35,843 nt of DNA. Origin: a virus. The stretch is taken from positions 1-35,843 of IMG/VR virus record IMGVR_UViG_3300029309_000126. One strand, 5' to 3'. The translations under genes and the position numbers were made by a program. Shown here in pieces: positions 12,376 through 35,590 of this stretch. The notes below the pieces were generated by a model. The model made no database searches. It was given only the letters and a program-made list of their open reading frames with translations, and was not told the DNA's origin. Position 1 is the first letter of the stretch. Every line of letters starts with the position of its first letter.

Positions 12376-12553
12376 CCTACTCACTAATGGCAGCGTCGAG
12401 TTACTTTATGATTCCGTACGTCCGGAAGATTTCGAGCGTACAATGAATAAAGAGATGCCGGAGTACGAAGGTTCACACTCGGTAGCATCCCTTCTTCGTT
12501 ATCTTCGTACCGTAGCCGATGAGGCTATGCAGAAGTCTTCTACTTACCTCTAG
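12338..12553 (+). CDS. Small hypothetical protein ending the replication block (about 71 aa)
   Basis: The part from LKPKAQLFKLEANLL to the end, including LLYDSVRPEDFERTMNKEM and a C-terminal helix, reads as one coherent small protein. The frame is open back to ATG 12227, but the upstream residues look like shadow of the nuclease gene. TTG 12338 is taken as the start with a weak site; ATG 12442 would give 36 aa. The last 14 nt overlap the end of the convergent virion gene. Confidence 0.5.
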   Translation: MKPKAQLFKLEANLLTNGSVELLYDSVRPEDFERTMNKEMPEYEGSHSVASLLRYLRTVADEAMQKSSTYL

Positions 12554-12836
12554 CTCCTGCGATACGATCTGCGGCTGTGGGATTCGGATTATTATCAATC
12601 CCAGCTTTGACACTGAGCATACCAAACTTGGTAGCTTTGTCACCCGCCGCCATCATCATGCGAGGCTGCTGCTGCTTCATAGACATGTTCTGTTGCATAG
12701 GTGTCGCAGACATCATGCCACCCCCGTAAGCCTTCTTGCGGGGTTTTTTCTTTTGTGCCGTACCGCCGTACATCATCGGCTTGCGCTTTGACATACCGCC
12801 GTACATCATGGCCTTACGCTGGCCGTTGTTGTACAT
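12540..12836 (-). CDS. Basic Met/Gly-rich repeat protein, last gene of virion block
   Basis: The 98-aa product starts at ATG 12836, with GGAG 9 nt upstream; GTG 12842 is an alternative. It has a repeated KxMMYGG unit (RKAMMYGG, RKPMMYGG) and KKAYGGGMM, with many Lys, Met and Gln. A more ordinary C-terminus follows (GDKATKFGMLSVKAGID). Low-complexity Met/Lys proteins of this style recur in marine phages; the role is unknown. It may be a small virion component ejected with the internal proteins encoded upstream. It is the distal gene of a long leftward operon. Confidence 0.65.
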   Translation of the reverse strand: MYNNGQRKAMMYGGMSKRKPMMYGGTAQKKKPRKKAYGGGMMSATPMQQNMSMKQQQPRMMMAAGDKATKFGMLSVKAGIDNNPNPTAADRIAGARGK

Positions 12837-12838
12837 TT

Positions 12839-15800
12839 TCACTGTTCTGTCTCCTTTTGACGTTGAATCATAGCTGCCTCGATGGCATCTTCTGGAATGT
12901 ATTCTGAAAGTTTCTGACCACTCCGAATAGTTTCGCGGAGGGCAAGAGACCTGATGAGCGTAGAAAACGTACGCACGTCGTCGTCCGTCACGAGTGCCGG
13001 GTCTTGCAGTAACAAGGACATGATACGTGACCCATCCTCTGACTGAGAAGCAATTTCGAATGCGGATACCTTTTGCTCCTCCATCAAGCGGAATGCAAAT
13101 TCTGCACCGACATATGTCGGGCTAACCATGCCTCGTGCAATGTTGAATGCACGGCTAATCATTTCATTCGGTGATATGCCTCGAATTCCACCCGGCGAGT
13201 ACTTGGCTAGACCTGTGCCAGATGAAATGAGCATCATCTCCGCCATGTCTTCCATAAAGGTGATGTGCTTTTCCGTGAGAAATTCCCCTAAAATGGCACG
13301 GGTGTTTTTGTCACTCAAGTCGTACGAAAGCTGCTGGGCGTTACTCAAAGTTTCTATCTGTCTTTTCGTGCCATCTAAGGCGGTGTAAGTAAATTCTTGT
13401 ACGGGTGCTACTTCAGCGCGACGTAGCATACCGTTAGTAACCATGTATACCATGCCCTGTTTAAATACTTCTTGCGCTTCAGTATCGGTGATCTCACCGT
13501 CGCTAGCCTTGAGACCGGCAATGAAAGTGTCTCGAAGATCATCCACCATGCCGGGTGCATAGCCGATAACATATTTCTCGTAAAATTGCAGAGGATCAGT
13601 GACGCCAGCAGCTTGTTCTAAATTTCGTACTGCCCGCTGACCGAGTTCGATAAACGTACGCGCTTCGTCAGCCAAGTCTCCAGTATCCGCGTTTACGAAA
13701 CGGCGGAAGTCATCAAGCTGCTCACGCACACCCTTGTCTTTTTGTACGAGCTTCATAATGTCATTTTCTTCGGAGATGAGTTTTTCTGCATCGAACCACT
13801 GACGAGTTTCATACGTGTCAGGGCCGGTCTTCACCTTGATACTAAAATACTTATTTAAGTCCCGTGCCCGGTCTATACGTTCAAAATCGTACGAACCGCC
13901 TGTAGGAGAACCCGCGATACCCAAGCTACCCAGCTTTGTTTTGTTGACAGCATTCGTACGAACCTGATCACCCCACGATACGTAGATGGCGTTCGAAAGC
14001 ATCTTCTGGATGTTCTCGAAGTCTTGCTCACTATTGCCCTCTATGGTGAGGTCGTAAACCCACTCGCCTCTGTTGTTTACAGTCATACGACCATCAGACC
14101 AAAAGCGATTAAAGTCTTCCATCTCTAGGCCGAGAGCCGCTCTGCTATCTGTTTCATTTACACCAGAAAGAATCTTTCCTACTTGCTGACCGATAGGGTC
14201 GTGCCATGTGTGCGGAAGCTCACCCGCGTCGTACCTTTTAAAATACCCCTCTCCGACGCTTTCGAACTCTGGCTTACGTTGCGCGTTTGCAATGCGATTC
14301 CCTAGAGAGCCTCGCGACTCGGTAGGATCGAATATGATCTGCTTGTACTTACTACGTGCGTTTAGCATCTCGGTAGCAACTCGCGGATTTGCCATGATAG
14401 CGTCTTCAATAGCATCGCGGGTTTTACTATACGGACGTGCTGAATCATCGTCCGGCATAGCCCTAGCCTTGTTACGCATGTGTCGAGATAGTTCATCTGC
14501 CTCGAATGGCGTAGCGAGGAAGGGTGCGAAGGTCAAACCTTCATCACTTTGCTTCGTAGAGAAGTGAAGCGCAATCTCGATAAACGAGGGGTTCGGGCCG
14601 AGATAGTCTTCGTTTGCTACGAGACGTGTAGGATCAGTAGGATCACGTAGCTCTGCTGTGGATACGCGTAGGAGTAGTTCCTCCATATCGTCAGCGTCTA
14701 AGTCCATGCCCTCCGTGAGTCCGCGATATGCAGCATCATCGAGTGCCTTAAAAGCAAAACGACCGCTGCGGCTACGAAGGAAGTCAGAGTCGCTACCAAA
14801 GTATGTACGATAGTCACTGCCTTTAGTTAGACCCATACGCTCTAAGAGGTTAGTGACTGCAGGGGTGAGGTCTACTTTTTCATCCCCCATAGCTTGATCC
14901 GCTTCTGCATACACAGCCTTACCCAAACGACGTACTTTTGCATCACGTACGTCCGACATGAGTTCGGCGATGCGCCCCATAGCCACACGATACTCATCCG
15001 TACCGCGAAGTTTTTCTACTGCGTCGATACGTACTTGTAGGGCATTGTCCATGTCGAGCATATTCTTTACGAGAATTTCTCGCTCGGCTGCAATGTTACC
15101 GAGAGCGTTCGGAGTGAGCTTAGTCTCTAGTTCAACGAGTCGATCAAAGGTATCACCCTCGATAGCGGCGGTAGGGTCTTTCAGCACCTGTTCTTTGTAA
15201 TCGTTGAGAACGCGCATGTATTCGCGGCGACGTTCTGCTAGCATCACTGTCTGCCCGTCTGCCGCATCTTGGAAGCCGTTGAGGAACATTTCCAAGTACG
15301 CTCGATCCGACGGGTCTACTCCCGTGCTTTCTTCTACGAGTGTGCGAAGTCGGTTGATGCCGAGTTGTGACATCTGCAGATATTGTTCGGCTTGAAGTTG
15401 CTTGTCTACAGCTTGAAGTACGCCTTTCATATTTCCCTTTGCCGCCTTGATAGCGTTTTGCTCCATAACCTGTAGAGGAGCCAAGCCACTTGCGTGTGCA
15501 AAGGAAAGAGTGAAAGCATTTTGTGCCTGATTAAATATCGCTTCTTGTGATGCGAGTTCTTTTATCGCTGCCTGATCTCCATTCGCTGCAGCCGCACGAA
15601 GCTCGTCTGACGGCTCGAAATTTTTCAAGATTCTGCCGCGAATATCGTTGTAGTTCTGAATGGCGGAGAATACTTTTTCTCTACCCTCCGGGGTCAAGTT
15701 ACTCATCATACGAGCCGCTTGTTGAAACGAACGAGTTTCTTGCGGTGTCAGGGTACGACCGATAGCTTCTCCGATATCGTCAAACGTACGATCTACGAGG

Positions 15801-17476
15801 AACGAGCGGGGAGCGAGACGAATATCTTCGAGAAATCTTCCGAATCCCGTGAGGGGTTCATCGAGCGTGGTGAAACTGCCTGCTAATTTTAGGCCAGACT
15901 TACTTAGCTTCAAAGCCGGACGACCTACAAATGCGGTGGCAAGGGCACCTATGGCTCCTGCTGTATCTTCGTCCATATTTATCATAGGACCGAGATATTG
16001 ATACGCAACTGCTTGACCCGCACTAATAAACGCTTCGTCAGAGAGTAGGGTAGCCATGAACGGACTGTTGGTATACATGGCACCACGATTAACTGCGGTC
16101 AGGCGGTTTTCCATGTTGCCTCGACGGGTACGAGCTTGCTCAAGAGTCAGTTCTATTCCATCCTTTGTTCCGTCGTCGATCCGAATAATCTCACTGTCTG
16201 TTGTCTTCGCCTTCTCTGCTCTGTTAATAGCGAGATCATATTGTGTGATATTTTTGTCGAGCTTACGTACGGCCTCTGCGTGGGCACGATCTTCGAGAGC
16301 GTTTCCGATTGCTCCCTTGTAGCCGACCTTACGAGAAAAGAACCCACCAATGTTGGCTTGAAATTTACGAAAACTTTTACCCCATGCAGTTTTTCTATCT
16401 GCAATCTCGATGAGACGGATAGCATCAACAGGATCGAGTGCGCCGTATTTATTAGGATTTTTTGCTACTTCGTCAGCGAGAACATCTGCTTGCCTCTTTC
16501 CTTTTGCGAGGGTCATCGATCCGATCTTCGCCGAAACAAGCGAGTTAGGTGCAAAGAACGAAAGAATCTTTTCACCTAAAGAGAGTTCTTTAAACCCGTA
16601 GTCGAGAAGAGCATCTCCCGCCGCATCGTTGATAATCGGAGTTACGAGCCTCGTGCCATCACGTAGGGTAGGTTCGTACACGGAATCATACGCCTCTTGC
16701 CCATATCGTTCGATGTACAACTCTTTGAGACGTTCATTCGTACGTTTTGCGAAGGATGTGTTGAAGCCCATGTTAGAGAAAAATACACGATTGTTTACTA
16801 AACCTTCCTGTACTTCTGGCGCAATTTTTTGCCACTGCTCTGGGATGCTAGTGTTTTCCATGATTGCACGGGCTGTTGCTAGTGCGGCTTTACGGCTATA
16901 TGTTTTAAATACATCGTAGCCTCCGAAGAAAGCATCTTTTCCGAAGTCTTCTGCTTGACGTACAAACTCTGTAAAGAAATCTCCACTACGAAATTCTGCG
17001 TTTAACAATTCTTGTGCGCGAGGATCGATAACGTGATTTTTTATGGCGTCGTTTAGGCGTATGCGATTCTCGGAGTATTCTTTGAACTCTTGCTGTTCTG
17101 ATGATATCATACCTAAAACGCGCGACTCATCTCCGAGTTCTTCAGGCACATTCGGAACACGTTGACCTGTTTCAGAAATCTTTGTTCCCGGTATGTTGGC
17201 TTGCATCAGCGAGGGTATTTGCGTGCGATTGTATGTGTCGATCTGCTGTGCGATTTTTGTCATCGCGTTGCTATCACCGGCATTTGCTTGATCGACAAGA
17301 GACGGGCGTACTTCTGCAGAACCTATAGTCGTCACATTACCCGAAAGAACGTCTTCGATGTCTATCATCGGATCAGTAGGCGGCTTCATGGCCTCTGCTT
17401 CGATAGCTTTTCGTACAGGCTCCGAAGCTTGCGGAAATGCGACGTTCGCTTGAGGAATCAACGGTTGTTCAGCCAT
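12839..17476 (-). CDS. Very large internal virion (ejection) protein, 1545 aa
   Basis: This is the largest gene of the window. The product is helical and charged throughout, with a moderately hydrophobic patch near residues 481-520 that includes GAIGALATAFVGRP. It has no signal peptide and no recognised enzyme motif. Giant proteins at the end of the tail and core gene run in podoviruses are usually internal core proteins ejected into the cell, as T7 gp15 and gp16 are. I assign the role from size, composition and position, not from a domain. It overlaps the 767-aa gene by one base (TAATG). Confidence 0.6.
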   Translation of the reverse strand: MAEQPLIPQANVAFPQASEPVRKAIEAEAMKPPTDPMIDIEDVLSGNVTTIGSAEVRPSLVDQANAGDSNAMTKIAQQIDTYNRTQIPSLMQANIPGTKISETGQRVPNVPEELGDESRVLGMISSEQQEFKEYSENRIRLNDAIKNHVIDPRAQELLNAEFRSGDFFTEFVRQAEDFGKDAFFGGYDVFKTYSRKAALATARAIMENTSIPEQWQKIAPEVQEGLVNNRVFFSNMGFNTSFAKRTNERLKELYIERYGQEAYDSVYEPTLRDGTRLVTPIINDAAGDALLDYGFKELSLGEKILSFFAPNSLVSAKIGSMTLAKGKRQADVLADEVAKNPNKYGALDPVDAIRLIEIADRKTAWGKSFRKFQANIGGFFSRKVGYKGAIGNALEDRAHAEAVRKLDKNITQYDLAINRAEKAKTTDSEIIRIDDGTKDGIELTLEQARTRRGNMENRLTAVNRGAMYTNSPFMATLLSDEAFISAGQAVAYQYLGPMINMDEDTAGAIGALATAFVGRPALKLSKSGLKLAGSFTTLDEPLTGFGRFLEDIRLAPRSFLVDRTFDDIGEAIGRTLTPQETRSFQQAARMMSNLTPEGREKVFSAIQNYNDIRGRILKNFEPSDELRAAAANGDQAAIKELASQEAIFNQAQNAFTLSFAHASGLAPLQVMEQNAIKAAKGNMKGVLQAVDKQLQAEQYLQMSQLGINRLRTLVEESTGVDPSDRAYLEMFLNGFQDAADGQTVMLAERRREYMRVLNDYKEQVLKDPTAAIEGDTFDRLVELETKLTPNALGNIAAEREILVKNMLDMDNALQVRIDAVEKLRGTDEYRVAMGRIAELMSDVRDAKVRRLGKAVYAEADQAMGDEKVDLTPAVTNLLERMGLTKGSDYRTYFGSDSDFLRSRSGRFAFKALDDAAYRGLTEGMDLDADDMEELLLRVSTAELRDPTDPTRLVANEDYLGPNPSFIEIALHFSTKQSDEGLTFAPFLATPFEADELSRHMRNKARAMPDDDSARPYSKTRDAIEDAIMANPRVATEMLNARSKYKQIIFDPTESRGSLGNRIANAQRKPEFESVGEGYFKRYDAGELPHTWHDPIGQQVGKILSGVNETDSRAALGLEMEDFNRFWSDGRMTVNNRGEWVYDLTIEGNSEQDFENIQKMLSNAIYVSWGDQVRTNAVNKTKLGSLGIAGSPTGGSYDFERIDRARDLNKYFSIKVKTGPDTYETRQWFDAEKLISEENDIMKLVQKDKGVREQLDDFRRFVNADTGDLADEARTFIELGQRAVRNLEQAAGVTDPLQFYEKYVIGYAPGMVDDLRDTFIAGLKASDGEITDTEAQEVFKQGMVYMVTNGMLRRAEVAPVQEFTYTALDGTKRQIETLSNAQQLSYDLSDKNTRAILGEFLTEKHITFMEDMAEMMLISSGTGLAKYSPGGIRGISPNEMISRAFNIARGMVSPTYVGAEFAFRLMEEQKVSAFEIASQSEDGSRIMSLLLQDPALVTDDDVRTFSTLIRSLALRETIRSGQKLSEYIPEDAIEAAMIQRQKETEQ

Positions 17477-27391: not shown

Positions 27392-28549
27392 TTATGCTAC
27401 CTTTACTAATCTTTTTTGCGGCTGGGCTACAGATATCACCCGTATCTTTTCTTTACGGATAGAAACAGTGCGCTGCGTATCTTGAAGAATGTATACTATA
27501 CGATCTGACGGTTCACGGATTGCCACTTCTCGTGCAGGCTCTTGACTGACAAGCACAGCACGGCCCCGTTCATACAGCGCCGGATCGAAACGGAAGGAAA
27601 GAAATCCGTCCGCAACTACTGTCGCTGCACCGGATACGGCCCCGACGCCTTTTTTTGTAAGTGTGCCTGCGCCGGATACTGTTGCCGTGCCGGTTATACC
27701 GGATGTAACATCCGCGACTAAGTCACCAGAAGAACTTACTGAAGAGGTTGCAGAACTCGTTCCGGATACATCCGCAAGCAAGTTTCCGGCTGCTGTTACG
27801 GATGCTGGCCCAGAGGCTGAACCCGCTCCGGTAAAGACAAATCCCCCCGTTGCAGTAGCACTACCCGCACCGCTAACAGATGCTTCTCCATCTAAAGTGA
27901 GTTCTGGCGTTGCAGATACAGATGCTGTGCCGGTGATGCTCGCTGATGCGCCTGAAATAACACCTGCGGTCGAACCGATAGCACTTGCGGTTCCTGTGAC
28001 ACTTGCCGCGCCTTTTCCTTCAAACGTAACGGATGCAGATGTAGAGCCTGTACCGGTGATGCTTGCTGATGCGCTTGAAATAACACCTGTGGTCGAACCG
28101 ATAGCACTTGCGGTTCCTGCGACACTTGCTGCGCCTTTTCCTTCAAACGTAACGGATGCAGATGTAGAGCCTGTACCGGTGATACTGCCTGTTCCGGGAT
28201 GAACTCGCGCTCCAGAAGCAGTTACGGAGCCTGTGCCGGTGATACTGCCTGTTCCGGGATGAACTCGCACTCCAGAAGCAGTTACAGAGCCTGTGCCAGT
28301 GACGCTTGCTGACGCTAGTTGAGTTTGTACCCCAGTTGCAGACACAGAGCCTGTGCCGGTAATAGATGCTTGTCCGTCTCCGGAAAGTGCTGCCGCTGCA
28401 GTAACAGAAGCAGAACCTGACACAGAAGCCGCACCGGTATGTTCTGTTCCTGCTGCACCACCAGAGGAAAAGTTTGCGTCAACAAAACCGAGTCCAGAAA
28501 CAGTGAGGGTATCGTAAAACCCTATTGCACCTACTCTCGGTAAAGCCAT
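27392..28549 (-). CDS. Gly/Ser/Ala/Thr repeat protein, 385 aa
   Basis: After a short N-terminus (PRVGAIGFYDTLTVSGLGF) residues 38-300 are built of imperfect units of the type ASITGTGSxSAS followed by a variable 6-25-residue spacer. The C-terminal 75 residues are different, charged and mixed (FDPALYERGRAVLVSQEPAR, then REPSDRIVYILQ). The repeats suggest a long beta-solenoid or stalk, with the C-terminal part as an anchor or tip. Parts of the array repeat almost exactly at DNA level. It sits beside the tail-spike candidate, so a stalk for the receptor-binding apparatus is plausible. Confidence 0.65.
   Translation of the reverse strand: MALPRVGAIGFYDTLTVSGLGFVDANFSSGGAAGTEHTGAASVSGSASVTAAAALSGDGQASITGTGSVSATGVQTQLASASVTGTGSVTASGVRVHPGTGSITGTGSVTASGARVHPGTGSITGTGSTSASVTFEGKGAASVAGTASAIGSTTGVISSASASITGTGSTSASVTFEGKGAASVTGTASAIGSTAGVISGASASITGTASVSATPELTLDGEASVSGAGSATATGGFVFTGAGSASGPASVTAAGNLLADVSGTSSATSSVSSSGDLVADVTSGITGTATVSGAGTLTKKGVGAVSGAATVVADGFLSFRFDPALYERGRAVLVSQEPAREVAIREPSDRIVYILQDTQRTVSIRKEKIRVISVAQPQKRLVKVA
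27930..28295. repeat. In-frame tandem repeats: two 123-nt units then two 60-nt units
   Basis: Landmark CCGGTG recurs at 27930, 28053 and 28176 (period 123 nt, 41 codons). Near-identical landmarks follow at 28236 and 28296 (period 60 nt, 20 codons). Units differ by few bases and keep frame in the 385-aa gene, so they are recent duplications that can change stalk length. Confidence 0.8.
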
Positions 28550-31281: not shown

Positions 31282-31623
31282 TTATGTCTTATTAGGATCG
31301 TACCGCTCTTCAACAGAGACGGTTACAAGTATAGTGTTAGAGGTTGTTGCCGTAGCTTTAACAACATCTCCCGCATCTAAAAATAGTGGAGTATTCATAT
31401 CCACTAATGCTACGGAAGAGTTAGACGATATAGCACGTGCCTCGAATATGTTTGTTGTAACCCCTCCGGCTACTCTCTGTATAAGTATGTTTCGATTAGC
31501 CGAATCCGTATTAGATAAAATAATAGCCTGAACCACAGACGAGTGATTAGCAGGCACCGTGTATATCGTCGTCTGGCTCGTAGTGGTCAGGTCAACTGAC
31601 TTTGTAACAAGTTTAGTAGCCAC
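31282..31623 (-). CDS. 113-aa beta-rich structural protein
   Basis: GTG 31623 is read as the start, overlapping the previous stop (TAGTG). The product is a small beta-sandwich-like chain (SQTTIYTVPANHSSVVQAII, NILIQRVAGG, VKATATTSNTILVTVSVEE). It is similar in style to small decoration or fibre-associated proteins of marine phages. Role not established. Confidence 0.55.
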   Translation of the reverse strand: MATKLVTKSVDLTTTSQTTIYTVPANHSSVVQAIILSNTDSANRNILIQRVAGGVTTNIFEARAISSNSSVALVDMNTPLFLDAGDVVKATATTSNTILVTVSVEERYDPNKT

Positions 31624-31883
31624 TAGCGAACCCTTCTGTATGCACGTGTCTTCTTCGCTATCTTTTTAGGCTGCTTCGCCACCTGTTTACCGGCCTTCGT
31701 CGCTTTACGCTTTGCGCGAGTCGTAGCAGCGTATTCCTTCGCAGAGAGCGCCTTAATAGCTTTTTCCGGTAGATATCTCTCCCCGGTAGCTTTCGGACCT
31801 TGTGTGGACGGCTTCCCACTGCGTGTACGCCACTTCTGCTTAGTCCAAGCTGTCAAAGAGCGTTGGCTCTTCTTCTTCGGCAT
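31623..31883 (-). CDS. 86-aa basic protein, DUF5872-like
   Basis: The product contains SLTAWTKQKWRTRSGKPST and then GERYLPEKAIKALSAKEYAA with TTRAKRKATKAGKQ. This conserved pattern is found in phages and large viruses, and I recall it as DUF5872. It is strongly basic, ending PKKIAKKTRAYRRVR, and probably contacts nucleic acid. It overlaps the 83-aa gene by 44 nt. The family name is from memory. Confidence 0.6.
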   Translation of the reverse strand: MPKKKSQRSLTAWTKQKWRTRSGKPSTQGPKATGERYLPEKAIKALSAKEYAATTRAKRKATKAGKQVAKQPKKIAKKTRAYRRVR

Positions 31884-32578: not shown

Positions 32579-32766
32579 TAGTAGACTCGTACTTTATCAT
32601 TTACTAGTTTCGGTAGGCAGTACGCCGTAACCGTTCGACCTTGTTCGTGTAGCTTTTGTGCGTACCACTTGCACTCTCGTAGGTCGCGAAAGTACAAATC
32701 GTTGCTGACCAGACGCTTATCATCCCCCAGCCCAAGAAAGACAAACAGGAGAAAGGCGTGCTGCAT
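32578..32766 (-). CDS. 62-aa hypothetical with hydrophobic N-terminus and two cysteines
   Basis: The product opens with HAFLLFVFLG, a short hydrophobic segment, followed by an aromatic and charged part with REC and AYCLP. It may be a small alpha/beta fold or an exported peptide; conserved small proteins like it recur in marine phages. It resembles the 66-aa gene at 1862-2062 in layout. The stop shares a base with the next start. Confidence 0.55.
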   Translation of the reverse strand: MQHAFLLFVFLGLGDDKRLVSNDLYFRDLRECKWYAQKLHEQGRTVTAYCLPKLVNDKVRVY

Positions 32767-32975
32767 TAGTCTCTGTAACCGCCCCCTGCTTTTTTGTAAG
32801 CTGCCGCAAGCATCTGGGCTTTACGCGCCGACCACTGACCCGGGCGTCCGCCCTTGCCACCGGCCTTGATGCGATTGAAAAGACGCTTTCTCATTGCAGG
32901 CTTGGTGTAGTTGCCAGCCTCGTTGACGCGGCTCTTGGTCTTTTTCTTAGGCTTGGATGGTTTGCGAGGGGCCAT
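32766..32975 (-). CDS. 69-aa basic protein with conserved SARKAQ motif
   Basis: The start is placed at ATG 32975, which overlaps the lysozyme stop (TGATG). The product begins APRKPSKPKKKTKSRVNEAG, continues GNYTKPAMRKRLFNRIKAGG and ends GQWSARKAQMLAAAYKKAGG. This arrangement recurs in many aquatic phages and is strongly basic. Function unknown; DNA binding in the virion is a guess. Confidence 0.65.
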   Translation of the reverse strand: MAPRKPSKPKKKTKSRVNEAGNYTKPAMRKRLFNRIKAGGKGGRPGQWSARKAQMLAAAYKKAGGGYRD

Positions 32976-33490
32976 CAGAACTCTCCCCTCTTCATGGCGT
33001 CCGAGAGCTTTGTCGCCCGGGATTTTACTTGCCGCGCCCAACGCGAATCGAGCATCTCAAGGGATGCGGTGTCGAAGTTGCCTGCCTCGATAGCAGCCCA
33101 CATCTTCTTGAATTTGCAGAGGCGTGGCACGCCCATATTGAATGCCATGTCCATCACAATCAGTTGCCGTACTGCGTCGAGGTCGTACACACAAGGCTTG
33201 GCCCGTGTCAGTTCGTTCTCTACGATTGCAATGTCATTGGTAGCGAGGTAATACGCATCCGCTTCTGTTATGCCGTGTTCGTAAACCGCATCTATGGAGG
33301 GAATATCCATGTAATCAAGTTCTTCTTTACTAATCCCCCGACCTTCTAAATTGCGCCCGATACCTATGGTGTCGATGCCGAGAGTGTCTTTGTATACAGT
33401 AAGAACCAAGCCTTCGTGCTGTCTCACCTTCTCTACAAATGTATTTAGGTCGTACTTCATTCCGCGTTTTATGTTATTTGCATTCATCAT
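32975..33490 (-). CDS. Endolysin, T4-type lysozyme (GH24)
   Basis: The 171-aa product has the GH24 catalytic triad with T4 spacing: E26 in RQHEG, D35 in YKD, T41 in GIDTIGIG (E-x8-D-x5-T). A conserved DMAFNMG element lies in the middle. There is no clear signal peptide, so export through a holin is expected. The genes just upstream encode two small membrane proteins, forming a lysis cassette. It cleaves peptidoglycan at the end of infection. Confidence 0.9.
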   Translation of the reverse strand: MMNANNIKRGMKYDLNTFVEKVRQHEGLVLTVYKDTLGIDTIGIGRNLEGRGISKEELDYMDIPSIDAVYEHGITEADAYYLATNDIAIVENELTRAKPCVYDLDAVRQLIVMDMAFNMGVPRLCKFKKMWAAIEAGNFDTASLEMLDSRWARQVKSRATKLSDAMKRGEF

Positions 33491-33696
33491 TCTTTTGCCT
33501 CATGTCCCATCCACACCGCAAACGCACCTGTCATGGCTCCCGTCACCACACTTACAAGTGCTGCCTGTTGGCTTGTCGGGTCTGGTATCGCCATGAACCA
33601 CTCCACTACGCGCCACGCTGAGATCGACATCCCCAACATCATCAAACGGGGGAGTATCCTCCACCGTAGTATTCTTTCCATAGTGACTTCGGCCAT
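33487..33696 (-). CDS. Small membrane protein, holin candidate, 69 aa
   Basis: Two hydrophobic segments follow a basic N-terminus (ILRWRILPRLMML): MLGMSISAWRVVEWFMA and ALVSVVTGAMTGAFAVWMG. The gene overlaps the lysozyme start by 4 nt. Size, topology and position fit a class II holin or antiholin. It is separated by 2 nt from the second membrane protein upstream. Confidence 0.65.
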   Translation of the reverse strand: MAEVTMERILRWRILPRLMMLGMSISAWRVVEWFMAIPDPTSQQAALVSVVTGAMTGAFAVWMGHEAKE

Positions 33697-33698
33697 GC

Positions 33699-34082
33699 TT
33701 ACCTCTTTCCAAAGAACTTAGTAGCGCTACGAACGCCAAATGAGGCAGCAACGATAATCCCCAGAGAATATTGATACCATTGCGGCATAGCTTCGAGTTG
33801 TGCAAATCCATTAGCTACTACTCCTTCCATGCCCGGTATAAACGCAAGAATCAGTGGCACTGAAAACAAAATAACCAGCCACTCGTCTTTCCACGATGAC
33901 TGGCTTCCACGTGCCATTTCTAAATCCCACTCAAGTTCCCCCGTGGCTTTCTTTTCCATGATGGTCGCTTCAGCTTTCGCTCGTGCGACTCTGGCCCCTG
34001 TTTCGGCCTTTGTTTTCTCGACCTTACCCTCTAGCCATGTACCAGCTAAATTGGCTATCGGGCCGATCAGCGCAGTTAGCAT
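33699..34082 (-). CDS. Holin of the gene-transfer-agent 3TM type
   Basis: The 127-aa product starts at ATG 34082 behind GAGG; GTG 34088 is an alternative. It has an N-terminal amphipathic part (LTALIGPIANLAGTWLEG), a charged helix, then SWKDEWLVILFSVPLILAFI and a second hydrophobic segment (WYQYSLGIIVAASFGV). This order with the SxKDE entry is typical of the 3TM holins linked to gene-transfer-agent release (PF11351, from memory). It should open the membrane for the endolysin. Confidence 0.7.
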   Translation of the reverse strand: MLTALIGPIANLAGTWLEGKVEKTKAETGARVARAKAEATIMEKKATGELEWDLEMARGSQSSWKDEWLVILFSVPLILAFIPGMEGVVANGFAQLEAMPQWYQYSLGIIVAASFGVRSATKFFGKR

Positions 34083-34360
34083 TTCCACCTCTTCCGCGCC
34101 TGTCTAAGGCGGCTATTCGGATTCTTTGCAGCCTTCGGAAACTTTTTCATCTGTCCAGCAGAACGCGCACAGAACGACTTACGCCGCTTGGCATCCTTGC
34201 TTCCGGGTTTGACTTTGCCAGTGACTGCAGTCTTCAGTTTAGAACCGGGGTTCTTACGGCGATACGCAGCCACTCCGGCTTTAGTCATACCAGCCCCTGC
34301 TTTCGTTGGCCGAAAGTTCTTTTTGTTACGGGCGGGCATGTTGTCGGCTTTGCGTGCCAC
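34076..34360 (-). CDS. 94-aa basic protein, DUF6321-like
   Basis: The product contains GAGMTKAGVAAYRRKNPGSK, then GKVKPGSKDAKRRKSFCARS and a C-terminus ending SRLRQARKRWKC. The repeating A-G-V-A-A-Y-R-R and S-F-C-A-R-S-A-G elements recur in many aquatic phages, and I recall the family as DUF6321. It is extremely basic. GTG 34360 overlaps the previous stop (TAGTG); ATG 34339 is an alternative. Binding of packaged DNA is plausible but unproven. Confidence 0.7.
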   Translation of the reverse strand: MARKADNMPARNKKNFRPTKAGAGMTKAGVAAYRRKNPGSKLKTAVTGKVKPGSKDAKRRKSFCARSAGQMKKFPKAAKNPNSRLRQARKRWKC

Positions 34361-34491
34361 TACCGTTTTCCTTTATGTCCTAAAACCTTTTGAAGAGATT
34401 TAGCTTGTCCAGAGTGTGCCTTAACAGCCTTTTTTAAGCCTTTTACGACTTTCTTCACTCGGGTTTTATTTCTACGTGTGAGATGGGGCAT
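34360..34491 (-). CDS. 43-aa very basic protein
   Basis: A complete frame runs from ATG 34491 to TAG 34360-34362. About a third of the residues are Lys or Arg (HLTRRNKTRVKKVVKGLKKA). A histone-tail-like amphipathic helix is likely. The start shares a base with the previous stop (TAATG). Not recognised as a named family. Confidence 0.6.
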   Translation of the reverse strand: MPHLTRRNKTRVKKVVKGLKKAVKAHSGQAKSLQKVLGHKGKR

Positions 34492-34640
34492 TACCTTTTC
34501 CTTGAAGTTTGTGCAGCACGCCTGAAGTTGCCGGAAGTTGGTGCGCCCTTGCTACCCGGCTTACGCATCTTCTCGCCGCTACCGGCTTTGATGCGACGTT
34601 TCTTGGCTGCAATGTTGGCATATAGTCCGCGACGTGCCAT
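34491..34640 (-). CDS. 49-aa conserved basic phage protein
   Basis: The product reads ARRGLYANIAAKKRRIKAGS, then GEKMRKPGSKGAPTSGNF and a basic end. The GLYANI...KAGSGEKMRKPGSKGAPT pattern is common in marine phages, including cyanophages, next to structural genes. It is short and cationic, without hydrophobic parts. Function is unknown. Confidence 0.65.
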   Translation of the reverse strand: MARRGLYANIAAKKRRIKAGSGEKMRKPGSKGAPTSGNFRRAAQTSRKR

Positions 34641-34644
34641 CTGA

Positions 34645-34926
34645 CTACGCCTTTACGAGCTTGTAGCCCTTTTTCTTGGCAGCAGCACGGATCGATGCAA
34701 GGGTCATTGCACCACCACGTTTAGTCCCCTTTGCCTTGCCACCGTTTTTCATCGCCATTCTAGCGCCGCCACGCTTACCGCCTTTAGCCATGCCTTTAGC
34801 TTTCATAGCCTTACCGCCGTTACGCATGATTCTGCGACCGCCGCGCATACCGCCCTTTGCCATACCTTTAGCTTTGGTCTTGCCGCCGCGCTTCATGCCT
34901 TTACTCTTCTTCGTCATCTTCTTCAT
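34645..34926 (-). CDS. 93-aa Lys/Gly/Met repeat protein, protamine-like
   Basis: ATG 34926 has GGAGAG just upstream and overlaps the 229-aa gene by 26 nt. The first 75 residues are repeats of KAKGMAKGG and RGG with almost no acidic residues. The C-terminus (LASIRAAAKKKGYKLVKA) looks like a short helix. The composition is that of DNA-condensing proteins such as protamines. It lies just downstream of the presumed capsid and 229-aa genes, so it may be packaged. Confidence 0.65.
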   Translation of the reverse strand: MKKMTKKSKGMKRGGKTKAKGMAKGGMRGGRRIMRNGGKAMKAKGMAKGGKRGGARMAMKNGGKAKGTKRGGAMTLASIRAAAKKKGYKLVKA

Positions 34927-35590
34927 AATCGCTCTCCGCATAGAGGTTGTCGAATACCCGTGCCGTGTCACTTACATAGTTCGGGTCTTGTTTCGAGTGG
35001 TGGACCCACTGACTAGGAGTGAAATCCGGTGGGCCATCGCCCGTTACAAACCACGCTGGGTTCGTTACTCGCACTCTGTTGTTTGGTAGGGCAACAATGT
35101 TACCTGTCCAGCTACCAGCATCCATGAGTTCGAGTACGTGACTCTGTTTGTGTTGCGCTGGATCGTCCGCTACTTCAGTGTCTGTGTAATCAACAGTGAA
35201 GTAGTATTTAGCCGGATAAAATTCACCGTCTATCTTTGCCAACCATGGGCAGGGTGTACCTCTGTTGAGTACAAATACTGAGTGATGATGTGACTGACAG
35301 TCCCACGGCTGTGCCAAATAAGTAGGAATAGGTTCAGGCCATTCATCGAAGGGTGTATCTCCTACTAGGGCTGTGAGGGGCATACGTGCCCACATCGCTC
35401 CGCCGTGTACGTTTTCTTCTTCATCGCATCCCGTAAATAAGACTTGGAATGACAGGGTACGCATAGGCAGGGTAGTTACCCCAATCACCATTGCGTGTAA
35501 AAATTCACCGTGATATCTGTCGTGACCTGTAGTGTATTCTCTCCGCACCCACGCTTTGAAGTACGGAATATTACTTGTGATGTAATTCAT
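34901..35590 (-). CDS. 229-aa protein of unknown function next to the capsid locus
   Basis: The product is rich in aromatic, His, Pro and acidic residues (YFKAWVRREYTTGHDRYHG, PTYLAQPWDCQSHHHSVFVL, ITNPAWFVTGDG-like C-terminal part) and ends in an acidic run (SDYEEDDEEE). Mixed beta structure is likely. Such proteins sit beside capsid genes in some marine phages. I cannot name a function. It has its own promoter and a structured leader. Confidence 0.55.
   Translation of the reverse strand: MNYITSNIPYFKAWVRREYTTGHDRYHGEFLHAMVIGVTTLPMRTLSFQVLFTGCDEEENVHGGAMWARMPLTALVGDTPFDEWPEPIPTYLAQPWDCQSHHHSVFVLNRGTPCPWLAKIDGEFYPAKYYFTVDYTDTEVADDPAQHKQSHVLELMDAGSWTGNIVALPNNRVRVTNPAWFVTGDGPPDFTPSQWVHHSKQDPNYVSDTARVFDNLYAESDYEEDDEEE

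Follow-up and report, generated by a model that had tools for sequence, protein, structure and literature searches.

What do four consecutive, tiny and strongly cationic proteins contribute to a marine phage? The question is raised by a 35,843-bp linear virus record from IMG/VR, referred to here as the window. By sequence similarity, the contig is an HMO-2011-like marine podovirus: its putative holin is 82% identical to an HMO-2011 protein, and the 69- and 86-aa proteins also match HMO-2011-like podoviruses. No terminase, portal or capsid gene was recognised in the window, and the contig is therefore probably partial.

The genes of interest are located on the minus strand, where the end of an unknown gene is followed by an acidic 229-aa protein (34901..35590) and then by P0001 (93 aa, with Met/Lys/Gly-rich repeats; 34645..34926), P0002 (49 aa; 34491..34640), P0003 (43 aa; 34360..34491) and P0004 (94 aa, GTG start; 34076..34360). 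Next come the putative holin (129 aa, so read by eye and matching PHROG 2524, for which no function is given; 33699..34088), a small lysis-region protein (69 aa, membrane-like by eye, PHROG 10198, also with no function given; 33487..33696) and a phage lysozyme of 171 aa supported by Pfam (PF00959; 32975..33490). The series continues with the basic P0005 (69 aa; 32766..32975), three small ORFs and the basic P0006 (86 aa; 31623..31883). The genes are tightly packed, with overlaps of 1 nt between P0002 and P0003, 1 nt between P0003 and P0004 and 13 nt between P0004 and the putative holin. A preliminary description had placed the block between capsid-side and lysis genes; the lysis side stands, but no capsid gene was recognised and the 229-aa protein immediately upstream matches a PHROG labelled 'ferredoxin'. 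This acidic protein carries an Asp/Glu run at its C-terminus, its gene overlaps the beginning of P0001, the most basic one, and the two adjoin in 11 loci.

Among the 40 window ORFs for which composition was computed, P0001-P0004 have the highest pI (12.0), with 33-35% Lys+Arg, 0-2% Asp+Glu and a summed net charge of +92. The coordinates, lengths and charge given for these four in the preliminary description were all right. Its three further basic proteins fared unevenly: P0005 (30% Lys+Arg) and P0006 (34%) qualify, but the next highest value is 19%, shared by one plus-strand ORF and the third protein, P0007, which is thus much less basic. To examine selection, we calculated Nei-Gojobori dN/dS ratios per gene against the six closest relatives shown. 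The values were 0.01-0.03 for P0004 (3 defined, 3 saturated), 0.04-0.21 for P0002 (6 relatives), 0.10-0.29 for P0001 (5 defined) and 0.19 and 0.23 for P0003 (4 saturated). With ratios far below 1 wherever defined and at their minimum in P0004, the four cationic ORFs are genuine genes.

Two of the four belong to families that were already named but lack an assigned function. P0004 is a member of Pfam DUF6321 (PF19846; 51.4 bits against a curated cut-off of 28.5), and P0002 matches PHROG 16028, the 'GLYANI' family, over its full length (E 7e-24, with residues 1-48 aligned to positions 1-48 of 50). P0005 and P0006 match PHROGs 17747 and 14910, so that the set, previously thought undescribed, has two of its four members and two of the other three in Pfam or PHROGs, all in families without function. 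Pfam gave no family for P0001, P0002, P0003, P0005, P0006 or P0007 at E up to 1; PHROGs gave none for P0001 and P0007 and only one weak match for P0003, and a search of the phage collection with P0003 was likewise empty at E up to 1. The idea that modules resembling P0006 correspond to 'DUF5872' was dropped: Pfam returned no such match, and the name occurs in the virus gene table of one paper. In the open-licence PMC papers searched, a restriction that makes absence weak evidence, DUF6321 was not named, and a wider search of titles and abstracts of such papers did not find the protein set.

DUF6321 was found in 209 phage records of one collection with P0004 as query and in at least 509 with a cyanophage query, the carriers being mostly cyanophages and pelagiphages. 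For the neighbourhood analysis we scanned with P0004 and with P0002, retaining the best 80 of about 600 matches each, so the sample of loci leans to close relatives. P0004 was present in 103 loci of this sample, and in 9 of the P0004-bearing loci (7 contigs) the P0001 and P0002 genes are adjacent. The P0003 slot varies: it is closed up in L091, holds a different ORF in L010 and, in L011, L021, L024 and L061, is filled by a basic protein of 59 aa. A DUF6321 gene lies within 1.5 kb in 36 of the 76 loci found by P0002 alone; none was detected in the examined parts of HMO-2011 and CRP-13. The four-gene block, whose recurrence in other aquatic phages had been proposed as a check, thus recurs but is variable in make-up.

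Position alone could suggest a role in lysis. Disruptin-like proteins are membrane-active cationic peptides in lysis cassettes, and the block stands directly before the putative holin and the lysozyme; P0004 is followed by the putative holin within 60 nt in 18 of the 103 loci (16 contigs, as L089/L021 and L090/L011 share contigs). In T7-like and T4-like phages, however, the same families are found beside genes for the head and for packaging. Homologues of P0002 and P0004 are located between the scaffold and capsid genes in the T7-like HTVC031P and between the capsid and tail tube genes in the T7-like P-SCSP1d, and all eight T4-like cyanophages examined encode a protein of ~300-500 aa with a C-terminal DUF6321 domain, named T4-GC119 in the Sullivan records, whose gene is flanked by those of the small and the large terminase. 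We therefore regard envelope disruption by cationic peptides as a very unlikely function of the block, although P0001 and P0003 may act in this way.

P0004 stands alone, whereas most T4-like members of DUF6321 in our data form the ends of long proteins. Two further scans added 160 loci, giving 339 sequences at that stage; DUF6321 was found in 294 ORFs and ended at most 3 residues from the C-terminus in 268 of the 291 with a known 3' end. We then searched 913 T4-like ORFs of more than 140 aa with profiles built from podovirus sequences only, without iteration; none of 1826 decoys scored below 0.01. P0004 matched 129 of these ORFs, the 59-aa neighbour of its relatives 81, P0002 7 and P0003 7, all seven of the last also containing DUF6321. 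P0005 and P0006 matched none of the 913, and P0001 had a single match of low complexity. Stronger links of P0006 and P0003 to modules in an iterated search were set aside in favour of the non-iterated result, since iteration can drift.

Profile-to-profile comparison gave 100% for P0004, 99% for P0002, 98% for the 59-aa protein, 71% for P0003, 22% for P0006 and 1% or less for other pairs, values to be read with the caution that the patterns by which modules were gathered already favour the motif in part and that the HxxQ set included a few unrelated segments. With default options, P0003 rose to 95% and P0006 to 74%. Individual proteins reproduce the order of the window genes: a 346-aa protein in L315 has a PHROG 16028 module (E 1.6e-18) followed by DUF6321, an S-CAM7 protein combines a weaker PHROG 16028-like start (E 0.0024) with DUF6321 at its end, and the profile of PHROG 11180, for which no function is given, aligns a P0002-like part and then a DUF6321 part. 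At the level of sequence, P0002 thus matches modules of T4-like long proteins; P0003 does so less securely, its weaker match being to a helical module, and P0006 shows at most a weak match. P0001, P0005 and P0006 share just charge and neighbourhood with the group of P0002-P0004. In three further loci (L271:3491-4444, L274:1328-4645 and L278:2654-5170), long proteins carry an internal DUF6321 domain and repeated 'QGVAE'-like linkers, the one in L278 with an HELVH stretch near its end.

The usual position of DUF6321 as the last module of these long proteins, nearly always right after a Glu, is to our knowledge a new observation. Of 117 distinct T4-like fusions, 111 have a Glu 2-4 residues ahead of the Trp of the module, compared to 17.6% in equal upstream windows; the remaining 6 have it 5-7 residues ahead. 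It is present in all members of 61 of the 66 upstream-sequence clusters. Two positions before it, 76 of the 111 fusions have V, L, I, F or M, 13 have Q and 12 have T. Other modules also follow a Glu, namely KNxPTNP (7/7; control 0.18) and CWxGY (69/82; control 0.31), with a weaker tendency for LRDWF (31/57; 0.21), GLWNI (3/5; 0.20) and DACYxKVK (36/74; 0.38). The prohead protease of T4, gp21, cleaves after L/I-x-E according to the available text of a T4 review (PMC9026906), and the DUF6321 junctions resemble such sites in sequence. Of the 16 T4-like records queried, most of which are fragments, 6 contained the prohead protease (PF03420) and 5 contained gp23, and inspection by eye of the gp23 N-terminal part in five contigs located an L-x-E at roughly residue 50-60.

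A second T4-type feature was seen in the short T4-like versions, of which 12 of 40 start with a strict T4-type leader, as opposed to 1 of 87 long versions and 32 of 2116 background ORFs. Against a stricter background of plus-strand ORFs of at least 90 aa, 30 of 500 had leaders, 23 of which by our own count belong to one neighbouring gene family. Members of this family (MKSFKQFLSES..., about 102-115 aa) directly follow the gene for the long modular protein in L309:4249-4596, L270:4261-4590 and similar T4-like loci. Leaders of the short versions, such as MKTFKEFQE, MKKFNEFINE and MKRFKQYISE, resemble the N-terminus MKTYQEFIAE of T4 ipII and ipIII, in which positions 4 and 7 are important for targeting and 8 and 10 for cutting (PMC9026906, available text). 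The leader is absent from the window proteins and, under the strict pattern, from all 95 podovirus N-terminal parts; P0004 has no Glu ahead of its domain, and a hydrophobic-x-E triplet occurs in 11 of the 95. In the open-licence PMC literature, 'capsid targeting sequence' combined with cyanophage retrieved only the T4 review. One further leader, MKTFSEFITE, begins a 169-aa protein (L263:1085-1594) and is followed by a YHGT-type stretch that looks ADP-ribosyltransferase-like by eye; T4 Alt is a packed ADP-ribosyltransferase.

We also looked for relatives among reported virion proteins. The S-CREM2 gene for ORF137 (108049-109521) ends in DUF6321, and its product is listed in Table 3 of the virion proteome with 4 unique peptides (PMC10665884, available text); as coverage is 4.1%, the DUF6321 part may itself be unseen. 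The adjoining ORF136 has a T4-like leader at its start and 8 peptides in the same table. For S-SM1, 41 virion proteins were detected according to the text available (PMC3037559), and the Syn19 record contains 28 genes, T4-GC119 among them, whose note reads 'similar to Synechococcus phage S-SM1 protein'. These 28 include all 10 proteins named as detected in S-SM1 in that text and no polymerase, helicase or terminase genes, from which we infer that the note marks virion detection; the S-SM1 case rests on these record notes. In S-SCSM1, for which 45 virion proteins are reported in the text available, a DUF6321 protein is named 'Virion protein', by name only. S-SZBM1_192, with leader and DUF6321, is not named among the 30 proteins identified in S-SZBM1 in the available part of the report (PMC9146016). 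The corresponding parts of the P-SCSP1u cryo-EM paper mention neither such a protein nor mass spectrometry, and those of a paper on HMO-2011-type phages (PMC9038755) mention no mass spectrometry.

These data bear on the alternative that the proteins are nucleic-acid binders acting inside the infected cell, in host shut-off or in the handling of DNA before packaging, and reach virions only as contaminants. The strongly basic composition, the low peptide coverage in S-CREM2 and the unnamed S-SZBM1 protein, as far as those sources are available, would all suit such binders, as would Ma-LMM01, where a stand-alone DUF6321 gene (L005:5947-6210) on the strand opposite to its neighbours is located near helicase and clamp-loader genes and not near head genes. 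The T4-type leaders, the protease-like junctions and the head or terminase neighbours in other lineages speak against an intracellular role, which we consider fairly unlikely. The earlier suggestion of a DNA-associated role in the virion gains indirect support for the P0004 and P0002 families from virion proteomics of a long homologue, T4-type leaders, protease-like junctions and head-gene neighbours.

Virion proteins could also do no more than neutralise or condense the packaged DNA by their charge, the option named first in the preliminary description. With a pI of 12 and a net charge of +92 for the four, about 300 copies of each, as for the T4 internal proteins in the sources available, would supply some 27,600 charges, or ~1/4 of the phosphates of a 55-kb genome. 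Such a function would demand less than what is seen in DUF6321, where G24, L42, R59, C64, R66, W92 and C94 are invariant over 32 sequences and dN/dS is 0.01-0.03, and we find charge alone a quite unlikely basis for the set. An AlphaFold2 model of P0004 built from 27 sequences (mean pLDDT 82.8, pTM 0.64) predicts four helices. Taken with the invariant Cys and Trp and a dN/dS near 0.02, this fairly confident fold suggests that P0004 has a specific partner. The model matched no solved fold in the PDB, with one match at E 8.5 and none at Z 2 or more; of the BFVD ranks 1-23, 16 were named DUF6321, one 'Virion protein' and one 'AAA domain', and five were unnamed. PDB sequence searches gave a designed helical protein for P0004 (best E 0.039) and nothing for P0002, the DUF6321 alignment or the P-SCSP1d homologue of P0002. 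Protamine-like condensers are low-complexity Lys/Arg chains without a conserved fold; the label given earlier fits the repeat protein P0001 by eye, but not P0004, and neutralisation by charge suits P0001 better.

On balance, we hold it slightly more probable than improbable that P0002 and P0004, and probably P0003, are stand-alone counterparts of T4-type internal head modules, packed with the DNA and probably ejected. Since the relatives of P0002 and P0004, and probably of P0003, are pieces of long proteins apparently packed in heads, P0002-P0004 probably travel with the viral DNA. In T4-like phages, the modules are either joined in long modular proteins or carried by short ones that begin with a T4-like targeting leader. 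This leader would direct them to the prohead core; there, cleavage by the prohead protease behind x-x-E, where modules meet, would release small basic proteins that stay with the DNA. This podovirus instead encodes the modules in separate, closely spaced leaderless genes, whose products would enter the head by binding to scaffold or DNA. Once inside, they would lie on the genome and probably be ejected with it, either to help pack the DNA or to act on a host target that is conserved; roles such as DNA condensation or countering host defence may be envisaged. Counted against head cargo are the lysis-gene neighbours in the window, the leaderless podovirus versions, the unnamed S-SZBM1_192 and the lack of matches for P0005 and P0006.

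The T4 internal proteins IPI, IPII and IPIII are, like the window proteins, small and basic; both binding to DNA at low salt and ejection are described for them (PMC9026906, available text). The leader and the x-x-E site are common to them and to T4-like relatives of P0004, whereas the podovirus proteins are leaderless; P0002-P0004 fall outside the T4 class because they lack the leader and cut-site features. Most likely, by analogy, P0002, P0004 and probably P0003 work like T4 internal proteins without belonging to that class. The T4 proteins, as described in the text available, are not widely conserved, in contrast to DUF6321. Head proteins of phiKZ and SPN3US, in the sources available, are packed and cleaved behind a short motif whose last residue is Glu, some of them remaining with DNA; these are giant myoviruses, unlike the window podovirus, and the likeness would lie in the cut motif. 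The polyvalent proteins of phages and plasmids are multidomain and thought to be packed and injected, but carry mostly enzyme domains; in the available text no such basic modules are named and a paucity in cyanobacteria is noted (PMC5512222).

A broader proposal, to which we give a little less than even credence, is that unrelated aquatic phages share a kit of small cationic head-cargo modules, made in T4-like phages as polyproteins that the prohead protease cuts open and in T7- and HMO-2011-like podoviruses as rows of separate tiny genes, of which the window would be a podovirus version. Should DUF6321 prove to be head cargo, a large group of marine phage genes now labelled 'hypothetical' would acquire a role open to testing. 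Podoviruses unrelated to T4 would then encode equivalents of T4-type internal proteins, and the long modular proteins would supply a list of candidates for delivery into ocean bacteria when they are infected.

The mildly basic P0007 (98 aa; 12540..12836, minus strand) lies distant from the block and is without family, and it is probably unrelated to it. Two larger proteins of the window were also recorded: a 1545-aa protein at 12839-17476, for which the phage collection gave no match at E 1e-5, and a 385-aa protein at 27392-28549 in which repeated 'SITGTGS'-like units can be discerned by eye.
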